A stretch of DNA of 62,600 nucleotides from Pontiellaceae bacterium B12219. GTDB taxonomy: Bacteria; Verrucomicrobiota; Kiritimatiellia; Kiritimatiellales; Pontiellaceae. Of this stretch, positions 6,660-55,377 are shown piece after piece (within the stretch, counting starts at the first letter, position 1; every line of letters begins with the position of its first letter). The DNA lies in the NCBI GenBank assembly GCA_029432795.1, contig JARNMJ010000023.1, positions 1 through 62,600 of the forward strand, read 5' to 3'. The notes beneath the pieces were generated by a model. It saw only the letters and a program-made list of their open reading frames with translations. It searched no databases and was not told the origin of the DNA. Position numbers and translations under genes: made by a program.

Positions 6660-7841
6660 ATGATTAGACGACTATTTATTGGGTTCAGCATGCTGTTGGC
6701 GGCCTCTTCCTTTGCACAGCGTGCAGTGGTGGAGCGCGAGGGCAGTGGTAAAATATCCATCAATCTGGCCGGCTATCGCACCGGCAGCGATACGGCATCG
6801 CGCAACTTTCTTTCGGTTTTAAAGTCGGATCTCATCCGGTCGGGCTATTTCACGGTGACGTCGTCGACCGCCTCGATCAATGTGGTGGGTCAGGTTCGTG
6901 CCGGAAGTCAGATGAAGGCCGATGTTCAGGTGTATAATGTGGCAACGCGCGCACGGCTGTTGGGAAAATCCTACGACGGCCCCTCAACGGCTTCTTCCGC
7001 GCTGGCACATCGGGTGGCCGATGAGATTGTTTATGCGGTAACCGGAAAGCCGGGCATGGCTTCTGCCAAAATTGCGGTGGTCGGCACTCGGTCCGGTCGT
7101 AAAGAGCTCTATATTTGCGATATGGATGGCAAAAATATGCGGCAGATCACAAACGACCGCAGCATTGTGGTGGGGCCACGCTGGACGCCCGACGGAAAGA
7201 ATCTGGTGTATACTTCCTATAAACGCGGCTATCCGAATGTGTTCATTACCAGCAGCGGTAAACCGCTGGCGAGCTACGGCGGTCTGAATGCCAGCGGTGC
7301 CATTTCGCCCGATGGAAAAAGTATGGCGGTGATTCTTTCCAAAGACGGGAATCCGGAGCTTTATGTTAAGAATCTGCGCACCGGTTCATTAAAGCGTTTG
7401 AGCAGAACGCAGCGAGGGAATGAGGCGAGTCCGTGCTGGTCGCCGGACGGGAATCATATTGTCTATGTTTCCGATGCGTCGGGGCGCCCGCATGTCTATA
7501 TTATTTCCGCCAATGGGGGTACGCCAAAGCGGATTTCCAGCAGCGGCACGGAGAATGTGGCTCCCGACTGGGGCAAAAATGGTTACATCACCTGGAGCAG
7601 CCGGATTGGCGGGAAATACCGGGTGGTGGTGGCCAATCCGCTGAACCGAACCATGCGTACGCTGGAGACGGACTGGGCGGACTATGAAGATCCTCATTGG
7701 GCACCGGACGGACGGCATATCATCTGCGCCCGCACCTCGAACCACCAATCCGCTATCTACCTCCTTGACACGCTGAAAGATTCTCCTGTAGCTTTGATTT
7801 CAGGGTCGGGCGACTGGTATTCACCGGCGGTGTCTCCTTAA
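6660..7841 (+). CDS. TolB, periplasmic beta-propeller of Tol-Pal
   Basis: 393 aa from the ATG at 6660 (GGAG 8 nt upstream; an in-frame TTG at 6645 is less likely). Signal peptide MIRRLFIGFSMLLAASSFAQ. An N-terminal alpha/beta domain (about 20-140) is followed by a six-bladed propeller whose blades repeat motifs such as PRWTPDGKNLVYTS, GAISPDGKSMAVI and PCWSPDGNHIVYVS. It binds Pal and the TolA-like protein in the periplasm. Confidence 0.93.
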   Translation: MIRRLFIGFSMLLAASSFAQRAVVEREGSGKISINLAGYRTGSDTASRNFLSVLKSDLIRSGYFTVTSSTASINVVGQVRAGSQMKADVQVYNVATRARLLGKSYDGPSTASSALAHRVADEIVYAVTGKPGMASAKIAVVGTRSGRKELYICDMDGKNMRQITNDRSIVVGPRWTPDGKNLVYTSYKRGYPNVFITSSGKPLASYGGLNASGAISPDGKSMAVILSKDGNPELYVKNLRTGSLKRLSRTQRGNEASPCWSPDGNHIVYVSDASGRPHVYIISANGGTPKRISSSGTENVAPDWGKNGYITWSSRIGGKYRVVVANPLNRTMRTLETDWADYEDPHWAPDGRHIICARTSNHQSAIYLLDTLKDSPVALISGSGDWYSPAVSP

Positions 7842-9756: not shown

Positions 9757-10476
9757 ATGAAATTAGGCGTTAATATTGATCACGTTGCAACCCTTCGTCA
9801 GGCACGCGGAACCGTTTATCCCGATCCGCTCGATGCCGCCATTCTCTGTGCCCGGGCCGGTGCACACGGCATCACGGCGCATTTGCGGGAAGACCGCCGC
9901 CACATTCAGGACGACGACATCTACCGGCTGAAAGAGCTGCAGTCGCTTCCGCTTAATCTGGAAATGGCCAACGTTGAATCAATTGTTGAAATTGCACTGC
10001 GTGTGCGGCCGGCCGAAGTCTGTCTGGTACCGGAAAAACGACAGGAACTGACGACCGAAGGCGGCCTTGATGTGATCGGCCACTTTGATGCGTTGAAAGA
10101 AACGGTTGGATGTCTTTCCGAAGCCGGAATCGAAGTGAGCATGTTTGTTGATGCTGATATCGAAACGTTGGTGGCCTGCAAGGATCTCGGAGCTCCGACC
10201 ATTGAACTGCACACCGGTTCCTATTGCGATGCCGAGCCCAATGCGCGTGCGATTCTGTTGGAAAAACTCATCCGTGCGGCCGACCATGCAAACGATCTCG
10301 GGCTGAAAGTGAATGCCGGGCATGGAATCAATATGGAAAACCTCGGCGGCATTCTGTGCGTCCCGCATCTCAACACCCTGAACATCGGGCACAGCATCAT
10401 CTGCCGCAGTGTATTTATCGGGATGGAGCCGGCCATTAATGAAATGCTCGATGCCATTCAGGACTATGAAGGCTGA
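9757..10476 (+). CDS. PdxJ, pyridoxine 5'-phosphate synthase
   Basis: 239 aa, normal. It joins 1-deoxyxylulose 5-phosphate with the PdxA product to form pyridoxine 5'-phosphate. Conserved stretches are the N-terminal LGVNIDHVATLRQAR, GITAHLREDRRHI, and the C-terminal GHGINMENL and LNIGHSIICRSVFIGME. There is a clear AGGAG ribosome site. The following gene in many genomes is acpS; here it is nnr after a 63-bp inverted heptad array that begins right at the stop. Confidence 0.96.
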   Translation: MKLGVNIDHVATLRQARGTVYPDPLDAAILCARAGAHGITAHLREDRRHIQDDDIYRLKELQSLPLNLEMANVESIVEIALRVRPAEVCLVPEKRQELTTEGGLDVIGHFDALKETVGCLSEAGIEVSMFVDADIETLVACKDLGAPTIELHTGSYCDAEPNARAILLEKLIRAADHANDLGLKVNAGHGINMENLGGILCVPHLNTLNIGHSIICRSVFIGMEPAINEMLDAIQDYEG

Positions 10477-10532
10477 TGAGTGAAACGTGAGTCGTGATGA
10501 ATTGAATCACGCCTCAATCGTCACGCGTCATG
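10477..10532. repeat. Inverted 7-nt-period array between pdxJ and nnr
   Basis: The left arm reads as heptads TGAGTGA AACGTGA GTCGTGA; the right arm as TCACGCC TCAATCG TCACGCG. The arms are roughly complementary. The array starts immediately after the pdxJ stop codon and ends 8 nt before nnr. Confidence 0.8.
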
Positions 10533-14998: not shown

Positions 14999-15099
14999 AA
15001 GCGCTTATTCTCCGAGATAGATCAGGAGCTTATCGTGGTCGAAGACGACGAGGTCGCCGTTTTCGAAATCGTGGGGTTCGGGATCGCGTGATTTTCATG
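14999..15099 (-). pseudogene. Decayed copy of the 3' end of the FG-GAP gene
   Basis: On the minus strand this translates to SRDPEPHDFENGDLVVF, then DHDKLLIYLGE and a stop. The intact gene at 17036-19219 ends SRGTEPHDLESGDLNGD, GIGDLVVL, AHDKLLIYLGE. The remnant keeps frame but lacks 8 codons, exactly the segment between two GGCGACCTC direct repeats in the parent. Only about 28 codons are recognisable; upstream similarity stops. It is a direct-orientation partial duplicate, separated from its parent by the toxin-antitoxin and Mrr genes. Confidence 0.85.
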
Positions 15100-15226
15100 A
15101 GTTGGAAAACCGCGGTTTGTCTTCCAGTGTCTGGGAAATAGGGCTATTGCTTTTTTACGCTTTCTTCCAAGGATAGGAATTAATTTGGGCGATGGAACAG
15201 GACCTCCTCGCTAGAGCAGGTACGGA

Positions 15227-15251
15227 CGTACCGCCCGCTTCCAGCGGGCTC
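15227..15251 (-). repeat. Dispersed short hairpin, copy 1
   Basis: On the minus strand it reads GAGCCCGCTGGAAGC then GGGCGGTACG, a hairpin GCCCGCTGGAAGCGGGC followed by GGTACG. A close match (GAGCCTGCTGGAAGCAGGC, GGTACG) is at 53182-53206 on the plus strand. Confidence 0.7.
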
Positions 15252-15345
15252 TGCATATCCGCCAAGATCTGCGGTACAGGTGAAGTTCAGCAAAACGTGT
15301 CTGGCCTGTTTTTTCGTGATCTGCCGGGGAGAAATGACGAAAAAA

Positions 15346-15394
15346 TAGGACGGGTACCTTTTGCGGGTACCTTTTGTAGGACGGGTACCTTTTG
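15346..15394. repeat. Contiguous GGTACC direct repeats
   Basis: Units TAGGACGGGTACCTTTTG, CGGGTACCTTTTG and TAGGACGGGTACCTTTTG follow one another without a gap. The stretch resembles the degenerate GGTACC-type short repeats seen around REP-associated transposases, but there is no transposase here. It lies just downstream of the toxin gene. Confidence 0.75.
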
Positions 15395-15422
15395 CCTTTT
15401 GTGGCGAAGGTTCCACTTCTGC

Positions 15423-15716
15423 CTAAATTCTATTTTGCCAGTAGTCGGGTTTTTGACGCTGATTCGAAAAAGCCACAATCCAGATCATTTCATCATGGAT
15501 TGTATAAACGACTTGGCAGGGGAATCGTTTGGTCAGGAGTCTGCGGGTGTGATCATCTCGCTCGGGCTGTCGTAAAGGCGCTTTTTGAATACTGAGAACT
15601 GCTTCCTGCATTTCATTGAGAAAATCAGTTCCCAATCCTAACGACCTGCTCTCATAATACGTTGCTGTGTCCCAAAGTTCGAATTCTGCCTGATGGAGGA
15701 TTTCAACGCTGAGCAT
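15423..15716 (-). CDS. RelE/ParE-family toxin
   Basis: 97 aa. Matches the ParE/RelE fold: N-terminal VEILHQAEFELWDTATYYE, the conserved GLGTDFLNEMQEAV helix, RRLLTKRFPCQVVYTIHDEMIWIVAFSN-like strands, and an ending with HxxRxP-like QRQKPDYW. Such toxins usually poison gyrase (ParE) or cut mRNA (RelE); I cannot tell which. Its ATG overlaps the antitoxin stop by 1 nt (TAATG), the usual coupled arrangement. Confidence 0.85.
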   Translation of the reverse strand: MLSVEILHQAEFELWDTATYYESRSLGLGTDFLNEMQEAVLSIQKAPLRQPERDDHTRRLLTKRFPCQVVYTIHDEMIWIVAFSNQRQKPDYWQNRI

Positions 15717-15931
15717 TAAAGTTTAGTTCGGAGATCATGAAAAACAGTATGTGCGGGTCTGGAAATCGCTTCTCCGGAATGGATCAGAGCAATTCGTTTC
15801 TCGATTTCCTCCTGGGAGACTGACTTCAACGCGTCCCCATTGAGGCTTGAAATCAGATTGTGGGCTAAAGCAGCTCTATCCGCATCGGAAAGGCTTAACG
15901 CTTCGTTATAAATTGTTTGTGCTGAAGTCAT
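15716..15931 (-). CDS. Antitoxin, addiction-module component family
   Basis: 71 aa from the ATG at 15931. An in-frame ATG at 15955 would add 8 residues but lies inside the apparent promoter. The sequence has the ALSLSDADRAALAHNLISSL helix typical of the addiction module component family (TIGR02574-like), normally 65-80 aa, and a C-terminal toxin-binding region with RPAHTVFHDLRTK. It is expressed ahead of the toxin from a promoter with an overlapping palindrome. Confidence 0.82.
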   Translation of the reverse strand: MTSAQTIYNEALSLSDADRAALAHNLISSLNGDALKSVSQEEIEKRIALIHSGEAISRPAHTVFHDLRTKL

Positions 15932-15938
15932 GCCATTT

Positions 15939-15966
15939 ATCTTAGATACATCCATCTGGATGTCAA
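15939..15966 (-). promoter_or_regulatory. Toxin-antitoxin promoter with overlapping operator
   Basis: On the minus strand: TTGACA (15966-15961), a 16-nt spacer, TAAGAT (15944-15939). The inverted repeat ACATCCA-TC-TGGATGT (15963-15948) fills the spacer and touches the -35 box, as expected of an autoregulatory operator. The predicted start site, about 7 nt after the -10 box, falls at or beside the ATG at 15931, so the mRNA may be leaderless. Confidence 0.65.
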
Positions 15967-16056
15967 TTCGAGTTTTTGTACGTTCAGAACGTTATGAGAG
16001 TAAACGTCCGCGACTGGGTGAGCAGGCATTGTTACGGGAGTGATCATGCCAGCCTT

Positions 16057-16974
16057 CTATTCATCAAAGTAGTCTGAATCCAATTTTTTAACTTCATATT
16101 GGCCAACCGTTGATACTCCAACATTATGATCAACCATAAGTGAGGAAAGCAGTTCGCCGTCAATCAGGATGATTTTTAGATCAATCATTGAGACGTATTC
16201 TTTGGCTTCTTTTGTGAAATTGGACGTGGTGATAAATACACCTTTTCGGGCTCTCTGCCCCTGAAGGGCTCCTGCAAATTTTTGAATTTCTGGTCTGCCA
16301 ACAATTCCTTCCCAACGCTTCGCCTGAATATAGATCACATCTAATCCAAGACGATCTTCATTGATAATTCCATCGATTCCACCATCACCACTTTTACCTA
16401 AAGCTTTGCCTGCATCTTTGCGGTTTCCGCCGTATCCCATTTTAACAAGGAGATCGACAACAAGACGTTCGAAGAAGGATGGGGATGATTCTTTTATCGA
16501 TGATATAACTTCAGATTCCAGGGAACTCCTGAGTTTCGAATAGGCGGCTGCCAATGAATCCTCAGGTGTTTGTGAATCATCCTGTTCATTTGTCGGTTCT
16601 GAAATTCCATTTTCTTCAGATTTATCTCTTCTCCGATTTTTGAATTCAATGAAGGCAGGAAACTGCTCAAGAGTGGAATTATCAATTCGTGAAGGATTGG
16701 TTTGAAGTAGTTTCCTGCCAATATCTGTAATTGAGAAATATCCTCTTTTCGGAGAGGCCAATAAGCCCGCTTGTTTTAAATATGAACGTGCCCAACCAAC
16801 CCGATTGTTGAAAACTGCTTGGCTACCACTCGGCAAAAGTTCGTTTTTTTCCTCCGGGGAGAGAGAAAACTCATCAGCTAACTCTTCAACCGCTTGACTG
16901 AATTTGTGTTCAGTTTCATCAGCTGCCAGTTTTAGGACGGGCAACATAAGCGTTTGATAGTCGGGGATAGACAT
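16057..16974 (-). CDS. Mrr-type restriction endonuclease
   Basis: 305 aa, the usual Mrr length. An N-terminal winged-helix domain (about 5-95, with NNRVGWARSYLKQAGLLASP) and an acidic linker (about 112-140) lead to an Mrr catalytic domain (about 162-285). The PD-(D/E)xK-like core shows D201 in GDGGIDG and Q217-A-K219 in IYIQAKRW, then GRPEIQKFAGAL and FITTSNFTKEA. The family is type IV restriction, cutting modified foreign DNA. It lies with a toxin-antitoxin pair in a 2-kb islet bordered by a partial direct duplication of the neighbouring gene. The coding sequence is clearly more AT-rich than its neighbours, which suggests transfer. Confidence 0.9.
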   Translation of the reverse strand: MSIPDYQTLMLPVLKLAADETEHKFSQAVEELADEFSLSPEEKNELLPSGSQAVFNNRVGWARSYLKQAGLLASPKRGYFSITDIGRKLLQTNPSRIDNSTLEQFPAFIEFKNRRRDKSEENGISEPTNEQDDSQTPEDSLAAAYSKLRSSLESEVISSIKESSPSFFERLVVDLLVKMGYGGNRKDAGKALGKSGDGGIDGIINEDRLGLDVIYIQAKRWEGIVGRPEIQKFAGALQGQRARKGVFITTSNFTKEAKEYVSMIDLKIILIDGELLSSLMVDHNVGVSTVGQYEVKKLDSDYFDE

Positions 16975-17035
16975 TGAGTGCTCCCTTATTCGTTATCCAT
17001 GTAGAGCAGCATGATTAGACTGAACCATGAGGCTT

Positions 17036-23230: not shown

Positions 23231-23267
23231 AAAGAAGGTAAACACGAAATGGGCGAAAGACACGAAA
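23231..23267. repeat. 9-nt-period sequence upstream of avtA
   Basis: Reads as nonamers AACACGAAA TGGGCGAAA GACACGAAA followed by AAAAGG. It belongs to the second family of periodic intergenic repeats (period 9). It sits directly upstream of the avtA start, just after the terminator of the PEP-CTERM gene. Confidence 0.6.
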
Positions 23268-23289
23268 AAAGGCGGAGGATTGCTCCGCC
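23265..23289 (-). terminator. Intrinsic terminator of PEP-CTERM gene 1
   Basis: On the minus strand: stem GGCGGAG, loop CAATC, stem CTCCGCC, then six T. It follows the gene's stop codon by about 30 nt, with the TTCCAA palindrome in between. Confidence 0.85.
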
Positions 23290-23301
23290 CGCCTTTGCCG
23301 A

Positions 23302-23316
23302 TTCCAAGGATTGGAA
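23302..23316. repeat. TTCCAANNNTTGGAA palindrome (2 nt after PEP-CTERM 1 stop)
   Basis: Exact copy, central GGA. In the direction of the gene it starts exactly 2 nt after the TAG stop and lies just before the terminator hairpin. Confidence 0.95.
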
Positions 23317-23318
23317 GA

Positions 23319-23888
23319 CTAGATCATGAAAATGCGGCGGACAAAGAGGATCCCGGCGCCGAACACACCAGCCAATCCCAACGTAGCCGGTTCGGGTACA
23401 TTAACAGTATAGGTCTCGGTATTTCCATCGGTCGTAAAGGTCCAGACGTAAGACCCTTCATTAAGCCCTAGCGAGTTGAAACTGGCATTGGAAAAGGTCA
23501 TCTCCCGATCAATGGAAGCACCGGAAACATAATCCGAGCCTATTGTTAACGACTGACCATACCAGCCAATTGTAGTTCCTGTATCCGCAGTGCTGGCTCC
23601 CAGATAGCCCCCGGTTCCCATGCTTGATTCCGGTCCGATAAGGGTATCTGCAGTGTAAAAATCATTACCCCCCGTTCCGCCAAAAGTCATTGCACTGCCG
23701 ATGTCCAACCACATATAAGACGACACAGTTCCAGGATTGCTGCTGCCCGTAGGATTAAATGCACTCATATCTAACGAGCCGGTCGCTGTTGCCACAACAT
23801 CGGATCCCTGTTCCACAAGGTTGACGATGATCCCTGCATGCGAATAAAACGCCATCATAAGCGTGATGGCCATTATCGTTTTTTTCAT
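23319..23888 (-). CDS. PEP-CTERM sorting-signal protein 1
   Basis: 189 aa. Short signal peptide (MKKTIMAITLMMAFYSHAG), a low-complexity Gly/Ser/Thr-rich beta body, then the PEP-CTERM tail VPEPATLGLAGVFGAGILF with basic end VRRIF. Such tails are cut by an exosortase/XrtA-type transpeptidase in the inner membrane; no exosortase gene lies in the window. The body matches no domain I can name. It shares its 3' layout (stop, 2 nt, palindrome, terminator) with the second PEP-CTERM gene. Confidence 0.85.
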   Translation of the reverse strand: MKKTIMAITLMMAFYSHAGIIVNLVEQGSDVVATATGSLDMSAFNPTGSSNPGTVSSYMWLDIGSAMTFGGTGGNDFYTADTLIGPESSMGTGGYLGASTADTGTTIGWYGQSLTIGSDYVSGASIDREMTFSNASFNSLGLNEGSYVWTFTTDGNTETYTVNVPEPATLGLAGVFGAGILFVRRIFMI

Positions 23889-24158: not shown

Positions 24159-24190
24159 TAAAAAAGGCGAGCGGATTAAATCCGTTCGCC
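24159..24190 (-). terminator. Intrinsic terminator of PEP-CTERM gene 2
   Basis: On the minus strand: GGCGAACGGA, loop TTTAA, TCCGCTCGCC with one internal mismatch, then seven T. It lies just past the palindrome that follows the stop codon. Confidence 0.85.
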
Positions 24191-24199
24191 TCATACGAT

Positions 24200-24214
24200 T
24201 TCCAAGGATTGGAA
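24200..24214. repeat. TTCCAANNNTTGGAA palindrome (2 nt after PEP-CTERM 2 stop)
   Basis: Exact copy, central GGA. It begins exactly 2 nt after the TGA stop in gene direction, the same geometry as at 23302. Confidence 0.95.
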
Positions 24215-24216
24215 AA

Positions 24217-25017
24217 TCAGATGCTGAAAATTCGCCGGACGGTGAGAATTCCGCCGCCAAAAATGAGGCAGAGCGAAATGATGGCAGGTTCCGGAATTGC
24301 GGCAACGGATAGGTTGCTGATTTGCGCATTCATATTGCCGTTAAAGCTTTTGGTGATGCCCACCTTGACCTCGTCAGTCAGATCGATTTGGGCGGAAGCA
24401 TCAACGTGGTCAATGAGGGTTTCCCAGTTTTCTGTTCCGTCGATTTTCCATTCGACCGTAACCAGTTCATTGGTGCCGACTGTGATGCGCACATTGCGGG
24501 TTAGAGCCGTGGCTTCGGTGCCTGCACTGCTGTTATTCATGTAATTCGGCAGACTGCCGGTTCCGGCGATATATGCGTACGAGGAGCTCGCAGATCCACG
24601 CAGGGAAACAGAACTCGGTGTTGAGCCGGCGTTGCCCCCCGTTTTCCCGTCGACCTCGGCAGAGAAATTTCCATGGGCATCGAATCCGATTCCCAATACG
24701 CCGTCAGTCAGGCCTGGTGTACCCGTGCGGTTCGCATAGCCCAGAGAACCTCCTTCTCCTCCGACGGTCGGTGATGCCGTGTTTGCATCAAACAGCGCCA
24801 CGGCGAATCCGTCAGACATATAGTCTGTTTTCCATGTGGCAAAATCGAACTCGATTACAAGGCCATTTGCAGTAGAGAAGCTCTGGTCGACATAATCTAA
24901 GGTTGTTCCTTTGCCGGAAAGGGTCAGTGACCCATCATTAATTACATCAGCTGAAGCTCCCGCAACAAAGGTGGATACGATTGCGACGGTCAGTATTTTA
25001 GGGACCATAATTTTCAT
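24217..25017 (-). CDS. PEP-CTERM sorting-signal protein 2, lectin-like fold
   Basis: 266 aa. Signal peptide ending FVAGASA, then a body with LVIEFDFATWKTDYMSDGFAVALFD, GIGFDAHGNF and VTVEWKIDGTENWETLIDH, which suggests a legume-lectin/concanavalin-like beta-sandwich. The C-terminus is a PEP-CTERM signal, IPEPAIISLCLIFGGGIL then VRRIF. It is probably exported and handled by exosortase. The tail resembles that of the first PEP-CTERM protein (both end RRIF plus M/S-I), but the bodies differ. Confidence 0.85.
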   Translation of the reverse strand: MKIMVPKILTVAIVSTFVAGASADVINDGSLTLSGKGTTLDYVDQSFSTANGLVIEFDFATWKTDYMSDGFAVALFDANTASPTVGGEGGSLGYANRTGTPGLTDGVLGIGFDAHGNFSAEVDGKTGGNAGSTPSSVSLRGSASSSYAYIAGTGSLPNYMNNSSAGTEATALTRNVRITVGTNELVTVEWKIDGTENWETLIDHVDASAQIDLTDEVKVGITKSFNGNMNAQISNLSVAAIPEPAIISLCLIFGGGILTVRRIFSI

Positions 25018-25268: not shown

Positions 25269-25481
25269 TTAACATGTGGCAATCACTGCGATTTGTTTGA
25301 GGTCGTCTGGTTGCGATTCCAAGGTTATCCCACCGGTGGAGCGCTGTGTTTCGGTGGAGGAGACATTCACATCAATGGTTTTGATGTTTTTCCGCCGCAG
25401 CGTTTCAGCCGGAGTTCCAGGGGTTGGACGGATGGGATGAAGCAGGCATTGCGTATTTTGGCGTAGCGTTCTTGGGGGAAC
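25269..25481 (-). pseudogene. Decayed copy of the 3' end of cmoB
   Basis: On the minus strand part reads ERYAKIRNACFIPSVQPLEL; intact CmoB has RYAKMRNVWFIPSIQTLERW there. It then follows RCG and MSPP..KHSAPPVG, matching RCG...VTSTEEQRSTDW with frame damage. It ends with TTAACATGTGGCAATCAC, like the intact TTAATATGTAGCAACCAC stop region, with about 60 nt deleted between. It lies in direct orientation 54 bp downstream of the intact gene. The rest of the 517-bp gap (25018-25534) holds nothing else I can recognise. Confidence 0.85.
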
Positions 25482-25534
25482 GTTTCAATGAATCCCGCTT
25501 TGACCTCTTGTAGAGCGGTTCATCGGTTTTGATA

Positions 25535-26488
25535 TTAATATGTAGCAACCACAACAGCGCGTTTGGGGGCGGGGTGGCCTTCGATGGTTTTGGTGGAATC
25601 GGAGGGGTCGAGATAGTCGGGCAGCGATTCAAAGGTCATCCAATCGGTGGAGCGCTGTTCTTCGGTGGAGGTGACATTCACATCGACGGTTTTTATGCCT
25701 TTCAGCCCGCAGCGTTTGAGCCAGCGTTCCAGGGTTTGGATGGACGGGATAAACCAGACATTGCGCATTTTGGCGTAGCGGCCTTGAGGAATGAGCGAAT
25801 AGCCTTCCGGTCCGTCGGCAATCAGTGTTTCCAGAACGAGTTCACCACCGGGTTTGAGAAAGGACTTCAACTGCTCAATATGCTCGATGGGGGACTTGCG
25901 ATGATACAAAACGCCCATGGAAAAAACGGTGTCGAATGCGCCGTGGATTTCGGGGACGTCTTCGATGCCCAGCGGCAATACCCAGGCACGGGAATCGCGC
26001 AGGAAGTTTTTCATGGCGAAAAACTGGCAGACAAACATGGCGGATGGATCAACACCAATGACAAGCTTTGCACCTTCGCCGACCATGCGCCAGCAGTGGT
26101 AGCCATTGCCGCAGCCGACATCGAGAATGGTGCGGCCTTCCAGAGGTTGGATATGCGGGACAACACGGTCCCATTTCCAATCGGACCGCCATTCGGTGTT
26201 GATGTCGATTCCATGAATATGAAAAGGGCCTTTACGCCAGGGGTGGAAGGTGCGCAGCATTTCTTCCAATCTCTGGAAACGTTCGCCTTCGGCACGAACT
26301 TCGGATTTAAGTTCAATGGAATTGGCTTCAACCTTCGGAAGGCTGGCAAGGGCTTCCTTCCACTGCGGCATCAGGCCGTGGCGTTCGGGACGGAGTCCGT
26401 GGGTAATGAGATCGGGCAGCACGCCGGTCCAGGATTCCAGATCGGTGCCCTTCAGCTGTTCGTAAAGTTCGGTGTAGTCGATTTTCAT
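25535..26488 (-). CDS. CmoB, tRNA U34 carboxymethyltransferase
   Basis: 317 aa, normal. It transfers a carboxymethyl group from carboxy-SAM to 5-hydroxyuridine at tRNA position 34, giving cmo5U and wider wobble decoding. Signatures are WRKGPFHIHGIDINTEWRSD, WDRVVPHIQPLEGR, the SAM-fold loop ILDVGCGNGYHCWRM (121-135) and GVLYHRKSPIEHI. It is downstream of cmoA, which makes the cofactor. Near copies of the palindrome lie at 25727, 26138 and 26264. A decayed copy of its 3' end follows it. Confidence 0.96.
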   Translation of the reverse strand: MKIDYTELYEQLKGTDLESWTGVLPDLITHGLRPERHGLMPQWKEALASLPKVEANSIELKSEVRAEGERFQRLEEMLRTFHPWRKGPFHIHGIDINTEWRSDWKWDRVVPHIQPLEGRTILDVGCGNGYHCWRMVGEGAKLVIGVDPSAMFVCQFFAMKNFLRDSRAWVLPLGIEDVPEIHGAFDTVFSMGVLYHRKSPIEHIEQLKSFLKPGGELVLETLIADGPEGYSLIPQGRYAKMRNVWFIPSIQTLERWLKRCGLKGIKTVDVNVTSTEEQRSTDWMTFESLPDYLDPSDSTKTIEGHPAPKRAVVVATY

Positions 26489-26560
26489 TTGAGTCCACAG
26501 AGTACGCAGATTTCGCGGATTAGGTCATCTGTGTAATCCGTGAAATCTGTGGATGGGTTA
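26489..26560. repeat. Inverted 9-nt-period array between cmoA and cmoB
   Basis: The left arm reads CACAGAGTA CGCAGATTT CGCGGATTA; the right arm TCTGTGTAA TCCGTGAAA TCTGTGGAT. The arms pair well over about 27 nt with a 5-nt loop. The array fills the gap between the cmoB start and the cmoA stop. Confidence 0.85.
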
Positions 26561-27283
26561 TTTTACGGCGAGCATGGACATGAAATTGAAGCATTGGAAC
26601 CAGACATCGACCGAGGTGAAGCCGGCGTTCAGCAGGCGATTCCGGTGCGTTGGGATGGTTTCGGGGATGAGTACGTTTTCGAGCGCGGAGCGTTTCTGGC
26701 TGATTTCAAGATCGGAATAGCCGTGGGCGCGTTTGAAATCGTGGTGAATATCGAACAGCAGTTCATCGAGGTGCCGGTCTTCGAAGGTCACTTTTTCCGA
26801 AAGAATCAGCACGCCGCCGGGACGCATGCCGGCGGAGATTTTTTCCAATAACTGGACGCGCTCTTCAGGCGGAATAAACTGGAGGGTGAAGTTGAGCACA
26901 ACAACCGAAGCGTCGGCTATGGGAGTGGTAAGAATGTCGCCTTCAATAATTCTCACACTTGCGCAAGTGTGAACCCGGTCCATCGCCTTGCGGCAGCGCT
27001 CGACCATGGCGGCGGAATTGTCGATGGCTATAATTTCGCAGTTTTGAGCGGTTAATCCGCGGGCCATGGAGTGTGTTGCTCCGCCGAGGGAACAACCCAG
27101 ATCGTATAACTTCGAGCCGGGCTGGGCGTAATGCCCGGTCAGTGTTTCAATCATGGTGATGATGGAGCGATAGCCCGGGACCGAGCGCTCGATCATATCG
27201 GTAAACACATCGGCCACTCCGGCATCGAAACGGAAGTCGGCGATGTTTGCCATGGATTTGCTGTAAACTTGGTCTTTGCTCAT
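26558..27283 (-). CDS. CmoA, carboxy-SAM synthase
   Basis: 241 aa from the ATG at 27283 (MSKDQVYSKSMANIADFRFD); the longer open frame upstream is not part of the family. It makes carboxy-S-adenosyl-L-methionine from SAM and prephenate for CmoB. Motifs are the SAM loop KLYDLGCSLGGATHSM, IAIDNSAAMVERCR, and VVVLNFTLQFIPPEER. It is the first gene of the cmoA-cmoB pair. The divergent protease gene starts 131 bp away. Confidence 0.95.
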   Translation of the reverse strand: MSKDQVYSKSMANIADFRFDAGVADVFTDMIERSVPGYRSIITMIETLTGHYAQPGSKLYDLGCSLGGATHSMARGLTAQNCEIIAIDNSAAMVERCRKAMDRVHTCASVRIIEGDILTTPIADASVVVLNFTLQFIPPEERVQLLEKISAGMRPGGVLILSEKVTFEDRHLDELLFDIHHDFKRAHGYSDLEISQKRSALENVLIPETIPTHRNRLLNAGFTSVDVWFQCFNFMSMLAVK

Positions 27284-27414
27284 GACGGCGAAAGATAGCA
27301 GGTTGCGTATAATTCGCCAGCAACTTCCAACAATTGGTCGAAAACCTGCTGCTAATAGCATTTGTTTTCCGTTGGTCGGGATTCGTATTTGAACCATTAT
27401 CTCCTCACTTTACT

Positions 27415-44244: not shown

Positions 44245-44311
44245 TGAGTGATGAGTGACGATTGAGACGTGAGCTTTTAAATCACGGCTCACGTTTCACT
44301 CGTCACACTCT
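44245..44311. repeat. Inverted 7-nt-period array between ftsK and the HEAT-like gene
   Basis: The left arm GTGAGTG ATGAGTG ACGATTG AGACGTG pairs with the right arm TCACGGC TCACGTT TCACTCG TCACACT. It begins 5 nt from the start codon of the HEAT-like gene; its RNA would be close to that ribosome site. Confidence 0.85.
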
Positions 44312-44334
44312 CTGTTTCTCATTTCATACATTGT

Positions 44335-53662: not shown

Positions 53663-53673
53663 GGGGATGAAAA

Positions 53674-53733
53674 GTGATGAGTGAGTCGTGAAACGTGACC
53701 AAAATCACGCCTCACGTTTCAATCGTCACACTC
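53674..53733. repeat. Inverted 7-nt-period array between FKBP and pgm
   Basis: The left arm GTGATGA GTGAGTC GTGAAAC GTGACC pairs with the right arm TCACGCC TCACGTT TCAATCG TCACACT. The same design as at 44245-44311, with the right-arm units TCACGTT and TCACACT shared, so the two arrays are related copies. Confidence 0.88.
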
Positions 53734-53736
53734 TTG

Positions 53737-55377
53737 TTATGCGAGGGCTTGGTTCACAATTTCTCTCGCTTCACTTTGAATCTGGTGAAGGTGCTCCTCG
53801 CCTTTGAAACTTTCGGCGTAGATTTTGTAGACGTCTTCGGTACCGGACGGACGGGCGGCAAACCAGCCGTTTTCGGTGCAGACTTTCAAGCCGCCGATGG
53901 CCGCACCGTTGGCGGGGGCGTGGGTGAGTTTGGCAGTGATCGGCTCGCCGGCGAGGGTTTCAGCGGTGACCTGTTCGGGCGAGAGGGCGGCCAGTTTGGC
54001 TTTTTCCTCGCGATTGGCCGGAGCATCGACACGGGCATAAACCGGGGCACCGAATTTGGCGGTCAGTTCGGCATAGTGTTCGCCCGGATCTTTGCCGGTG
54101 ACGGCCAGAATTTCGCAGGCGAGCAGGCAGAGGATAATACCGTCTTTATCGGTGCTCCAAACGGTGCCGTCTTTGCGGAGGAAGGAGGCGCCGGCGGACT
54201 CTTCGCCGCCGAAGCCGTAGGAGCCGTCAACGAGGCCGTTCACAAACCATTTGAATCCAACGGGCACTTCCTGCAGGTCGCGGCCGAGGTCGGCGGCAAC
54301 GCGGTCGATCATGGAGGAGGAGACCAGCGTTTTTCCAACGGCGGCATCTTTGCGCCATCCGGTGCGGTTGGCGTAGAGGTAGTTGATGGCCACGGCGAGA
54401 TAGTGGTTCGGGTTGAGCAGTCCGGCGGATTTCGTGACGATGCCGTGTCGGTCGTAGTCGGGGTCGTTGCCGAAGGCGATATCGAAATCGTCTTTCAGCG
54501 CAACGAGACTGGCCATGGCGTAGGGCGAGGAGCAGTCCATGCGGACTTTTCCGTCGCCGTCGACGGTCATGAAGCTGAAGGTGTAATCAACTGTATTATT
54601 ACGGATGGTGATATCGAGGCCGTATTTTTCGGCGATCGGTTTCCAATAGCGCAGGCCGGAACCGCCCATGGCGTCGGCACAGATTTTAAGGCCGGCTTTT
54701 TTGATGGCTTCCATATCGACCACGTTTCCAAGGTCTGAAACATAGGGGGTGATAAAGTCGTAGGCGACGGTGGTGTCGGCGGCAAGGGCGTCGGGGTAGT
54801 AGAGGCTTTCGACGTCGACGTTCCCTGCGGCCATCAGCTCGTTGGCGCGATCGGCAATCCAACCGGTGGCATCGGTGTCGGCGGGGCCGCCGTTGGGCGG
54901 ATTGTATTTGAAGCCGCCGTTGTCGGGCGGATTGTGCGAAGGGGTGATGACGACGCCGTCGGCGAGGCCTTCGGTGCGGTCTTTATTGTAGGCGAGAATC
55001 GCGTGGGAGATGACAGGCGTCGGCGTGTAGCCGCCGTCCTGATCGATCATCACGGTGACGCCGTTGGCGGCGAACACCTGAAGTGCGGTCTTTTCGGCGG
55101 GGATGGAAAGGGCGTGCGTGTCTTTACCCATGAAGAGCGGGCCGGTGGTGCCCTGCGCGGCACGGTATTCGCAGATCGCCTGGGCAATCGCCATGATGTG
55201 GTCTTCGGTGAAACTCTTCTTCAGCGAGGAGCCACGATGGCCGGAGGTGCCGAAGGCGACTTTTTCATCGGGATTGGAGGCGTCGGGCTGTGTTTCATAA
55301 TAGAGGCTGACGAGTTCCGCGATGTCGGCGAGATCTTCTTTTGTAACAGGTTTTCCTGCATTTGGATGAATGGCCAT
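53737..55377 (-). CDS. Pgm, alpha-phosphoglucomutase
   Basis: 546 aa, E. coli Pgm type. Interconverts glucose 1- and 6-phosphate. Features are [17 protein letters not shown], the phosphoserine loop [17 protein letters not shown], the metal loop [10 protein letters not shown], the sugar loop in [15 protein letters not shown], and the C-terminal phosphate loop [20 protein letters not shown] ribosome site. Divergent from the SPFH pair. Confidence 0.96.

Follow-up and report, generated by a model that had tools for sequence, protein, structure and literature searches.

A decayed copy of the cmoB 3' end downstream of the intact gene in a Pontiellaceae bacterium, probably a local partial duplicate

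Integrative elements insert in the 3' ends of genes, for example tRNA genes or icd, and truncated tandem (partial) gene duplicates occur among bacterial pseudogene fragments. In Pontiellaceae bacterium B12219, the gene cmoB is followed by a decayed copy of its own 3' end (hereafter the remnant), which can be compared with both. As at the insertion sites of 3'-end integrative elements, the repeated stretch is the 3' end of a gene, stop codon included; the cmoB locus differs in that neither an element nor an integrase was found there, intact cmoB has no foreign 3' end, and the two copies lie 53 bp apart. With truncated tandem duplicates the remnant has in common that it is adjacent to its source, in the same orientation, headless, frameshifted, unconstrained, and lineage specific, and it departs from them by an eroded duplication junction and an unexplained 53-bp spacer. 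A literature search found nothing specific. We consider that the remnant is very probably a local, tandem-type partial duplicate of cmoB, restricted to this lineage and persisting as a decaying pseudogene fragment.

The cmoB Locus and the Anatomy of the Remnant

The stretch of DNA analyzed (the window) is one whole contig of 62.6 kb, from a genome of 4.75 Mb in 273 contigs (G000) that was compared with the congeners G001, G016, G021, G024, and G040; its relatives include Pontiellaceae bacterium B12227 and Pontiella desulfatans, which places it in the Pontiellaceae (order Kiritimatiellales). The intact cmoB, the source copy, encodes tRNA uridine 5-oxyacetic acid(34) synthase and occupies positions 25535..26488 of the minus strand, with matches to TIGR00452 (CmoB, 462 bits) and PF08003. 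Its conserved upstream neighbor is cmoA (26558..27397, minus strand; TIGR00740), and the order cmoA-cmoB is kept, along with a downstream aminotransferase gene, in G001, G016, G040, and G021. The downstream neighbor in the window (24217..25017, minus strand) gave no Pfam match, and its C-terminus was assigned by eye as PEP-CTERM-like; synteny is found at locus L039 of G001, in which a PEP-CTERM-like gene likewise lies downstream of cmoB, with no remnant between the two. In the same part of the window, two adjoining PEP-CTERM-type genes repeat their C-terminal codons and the terminator-like DNA downstream of them (23265-23363 vs. 24160-24261; 74.5% over 102 bp).

The remnant has the same orientation as cmoB, and its matched part corresponds to cmoB codons ~233-317. 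The core (25299..25477, minus strand) is a copy of cmoB nucleotides 700-879, recovered by self-comparison of the window at 82.2% identity over 180 columns with a single 1-nt gap (E = 1e-44); this 1-nt deletion breaks the reading frame of the remnant. A lax local alignment of cmoB with the DNA downstream of it scored 118, whereas the best of 200 shuffles reached 35. The tail (25269..25298, minus strand) corresponds to the final 30 nt of cmoB, TAA stop codon included, and is identical at 20 of the 30 positions, a match equaled by only 3 of the 125,200 30-mers of the window. The junction between core and tail is marked by a 45-nt deletion relative to cmoB. When the remnant stretch was searched against the whole genome (4.75 Mb), no match besides cmoB, and hence no third copy, was found. 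These results bear out the initial annotation, which had described 25269-25481 as a degraded direct copy of the cmoB 3' end: its coordinates are accurate, and the identity is neither too low nor too short to be significant. The broader range that it gave, 25269-25805, holds for the remnant up to 25481, but the end at 25805 runs into the intact gene.

Between the stop codon of intact cmoB and the remnant lies a spacer of 53 bp (25482..25534, minus strand). Taken as 53-57 bp, it displays no significant similarity to the part of cmoB upstream of the core or to the sequence that follows the remnant (best p about 0.1), nor to the DNA downstream of cmoB in G001, G016, or G024 (best p again about 0.1). 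In a tandem-junction test, which supposes a head-to-tail unit, the spacer resembled neither cmoB nor the post-remnant sequence, and the breakpoints are eroded.

Phylogenetic Placement and Decay

We addressed the relationship of the remnant to the intact gene by phylogenetic analyses in which it was aligned with the cmoB genes of congeneric genomes, using core-only and full alignments. With both alignments the remnant and the intact cmoB of the same genome formed a sister pair (UFBoot 97, SH-aLRT 86-89), and this grouping was the best tree in the AU test. Placing the remnant beside either of the sister genomes G001 and G016 was rejected (p 0.001), as was placing it outside the group formed by G000 and its sisters (p 0.03); a position beside G024 or G040 was 6.8 log units worse and not rejected at 5% (AU p 0.06). 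Identity at third codon positions is 77% between the remnant and intact cmoB and no more than 58% between the remnant and any congener, and six states are common to the remnant and intact cmoB while being absent from three sisters. The initial annotation had posed a choice between gene replacement, with the remnant clustering with sister species, and duplication, with the remnant clustering with the intact copy; the tree falls on the side of duplication. The remnant was searched in 27 congeners and found in none of them. A second cmoB 3'-end piece (112 bp, 86.6% identical to G000 cmoB) is present in another genome, G007, at a contig end (C2; L037:3066-3177); G007 has a complete cmoB elsewhere, and this fragment could come from another strain or from contamination.

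The changes that are private to the remnant are spread evenly over the codon: the 20 that could be polarized fall 7/6/7 at first, second, and third positions. Over the same stretch, the differences between the functional cmoB genes of G000 and G024 are distributed 2/2/19, and the two patterns are significantly different (Fisher p 0.002); in intact cmoB itself, the core region carries five private changes, of which three are at third positions. The evenness of the private changes indicates that the remnant has decayed without coding constraint since the two copies split. It was thus dead from the start, or almost so.

Weighing the Possible Origins

From what is generally known of duplications in bacteria, we infer that the remnant arose through an illegitimate (recA-independent) duplication of tandem type or through templated insertion over a short range, which would have taken place in the G000 lineage after its separation from the known congeners. 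The duplicated stretch would have run from inside cmoB, at about codon 233, to the stop codon or just past it, and would have been placed locally in the same orientation. If one breakpoint lies within the gene and the second past its 3' end, the gene itself stays whole while a headless 3' copy comes to stand behind it, and selection need not be invoked; the headless copy, having no start and no function, has since decayed through point substitutions, a frameshift, and a 45-nt deletion. Against a simple tandem unit, the spacer is not recognizably a second copy of anything and the exact junction is eroded. With a spacer that is no longer recognizable, the copy may have arisen by slippage, by unequal exchange, or as a templated insertion. 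That ordinary short local duplications do occur at the cmoB locus is shown by an independent and comparable event in G001, where the intact aminotransferase gene is preceded, ~0.9 kb upstream, by a 162-bp copy of its own 5' end (95% identical; L039, 6525-6686 vs. 7557-7717). The G001 copy (L039:6525-6686) stands upstream of a second PEP-CTERM gene, and the PEP-CTERM tails are repeated there too (71%); it is probably a lineage-specific duplication of a PEP-CTERM gene together with the start of the next gene.

Other origins would produce a similar arrangement. The initial annotation had suggested that a horizontally acquired cmoB homolog took over, with the remnant as the surviving 3' end of the former resident; the anatomy, an intact gene and then an old 3' end, would fit, as would the position beside G024 or G040 that the AU test did not reject at 5%. 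However, a replaced gene should cluster with sister species and the intact gene elsewhere, and the two copies are sisters, while synteny and similarity indicate that the intact cmoB was inherited vertically. A former resident gene would also have passed through a period of constraint, of which the private changes bear no trace: if half of them had arisen under constraint, finding at least 13 of the 20 at first and second positions would have p 0.03, which disfavors a constrained share of half or more. The sister relationship of the two copies and the decay of the remnant without coding constraint thus disfavor gene replacement, which we regard as very unlikely.

The annotation had also put forward integration and excision at gene 3' ends, in which an element would have integrated at the cmoB 3' end, bringing a replacement 3' end, and would later have been lost. 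Like attachment-site repeats at the 3' ends of genes, the remnant does extend to the stop codon, and the spacer, which resembles none of the sequences compared with it, would fit such a history. Nevertheless, only the spacer separates the copies, with no element between them, and no element or recombinase family was detected among the neighboring ORFs scanned with Pfam. Nor does the intact 3' end look imported: the third-position identity of this block to relatives is not below that of the rest of cmoB, it has derived states in common with the remnant, and nothing alike is seen at cmoB in congeners. Such a scar is highly improbable. A mosaic or foreign origin of the intact 3' end was tried separately and rejected, the slight extra similarity of the 3' third of cmoB to G024 and G040 coming mostly from codon positions 1 and 2; this excess reflects replacement changes in G001 and G016, and not third positions. 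A retained functional element derived from the cmoB 3' end, either a regulatory RNA or a terminator, has a negligible chance of being the explanation. Its support consists of the position of the remnant, immediately downstream of cmoB on the coding strand, and of a modest hairpin into which the spacer folds (z -1.1), whereas the remnant is kept in no relative and has decayed evenly. As a candidate terminator, the hairpin was rejected, since the spacer folds no better than shuffled sequences. Local partial duplication of cmoB is accordingly the explanation that we retain.

Other Duplicated Gene Ends and Repeats

A second decayed 3'-end copy in the window belongs to an FG-GAP gene. At 15005-15105, ~100 nt of the 3' end of this gene are repeated, with a deletion, up to the stop codon. 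Both remnants are therefore decayed 3'-end copies that end at a stop codon, but the FG-GAP remnant lies ~1.9 kb from its gene, as against 53 bp at cmoB, and it is too short for phylogenetic placement. An Mrr-type endonuclease gene (PF04471/PF14338) and an ORF resembling a ParE toxin, whose match is weak and below the Pfam cut-off, lie between the FG-GAP gene and its remnant; tblastn searches for these ORFs (from the stretch 15005-17035) in G016, G001, and G021 did not find them at the equivalent position. Self-comparison of four contigs (445 kb, about 9% of the genome) yielded the cmoB and FG-GAP remnants as the only such cases, along with tandem and intragenic repeats, PEP-CTERM tails, and one weak gene-end pair. 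A process shared by the two remnants, as the initial annotation had suggested, is not supported, because the duplicate at the same locus in G001 is of a 5' end and because the anatomy of the FG-GAP case is different; two cases that differ in this way give no support for a common 3'-end mechanism. It is exceedingly unlikely that a lineage-specific process repeatedly copies gene ends up to the stop codon and left the decaying 3' ends at cmoB and FG-GAP.

Two further kinds of repeat were noticed. Copies of a dispersed repeat, each about 60-70 bp long, occur in both orientations, at 80-81% identity, at 44247-44316, 53673-53738, and 10474-10530 of the window. Elsewhere in the genome, L063 (G000:C77:67249-70539) consists of ~3.3 kb of repeats with a period of 66-67 bp and resembles a CRISPR array.

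The cmoB remnant is an ordinary feature, to which we attach no wider significance. It is a small, clear-cut case of partial duplication producing a headless 3' copy behind an intact gene, and it shows that remnants of this kind are evidence of horizontal replacement only when phylogeny and codon-position tests say so.
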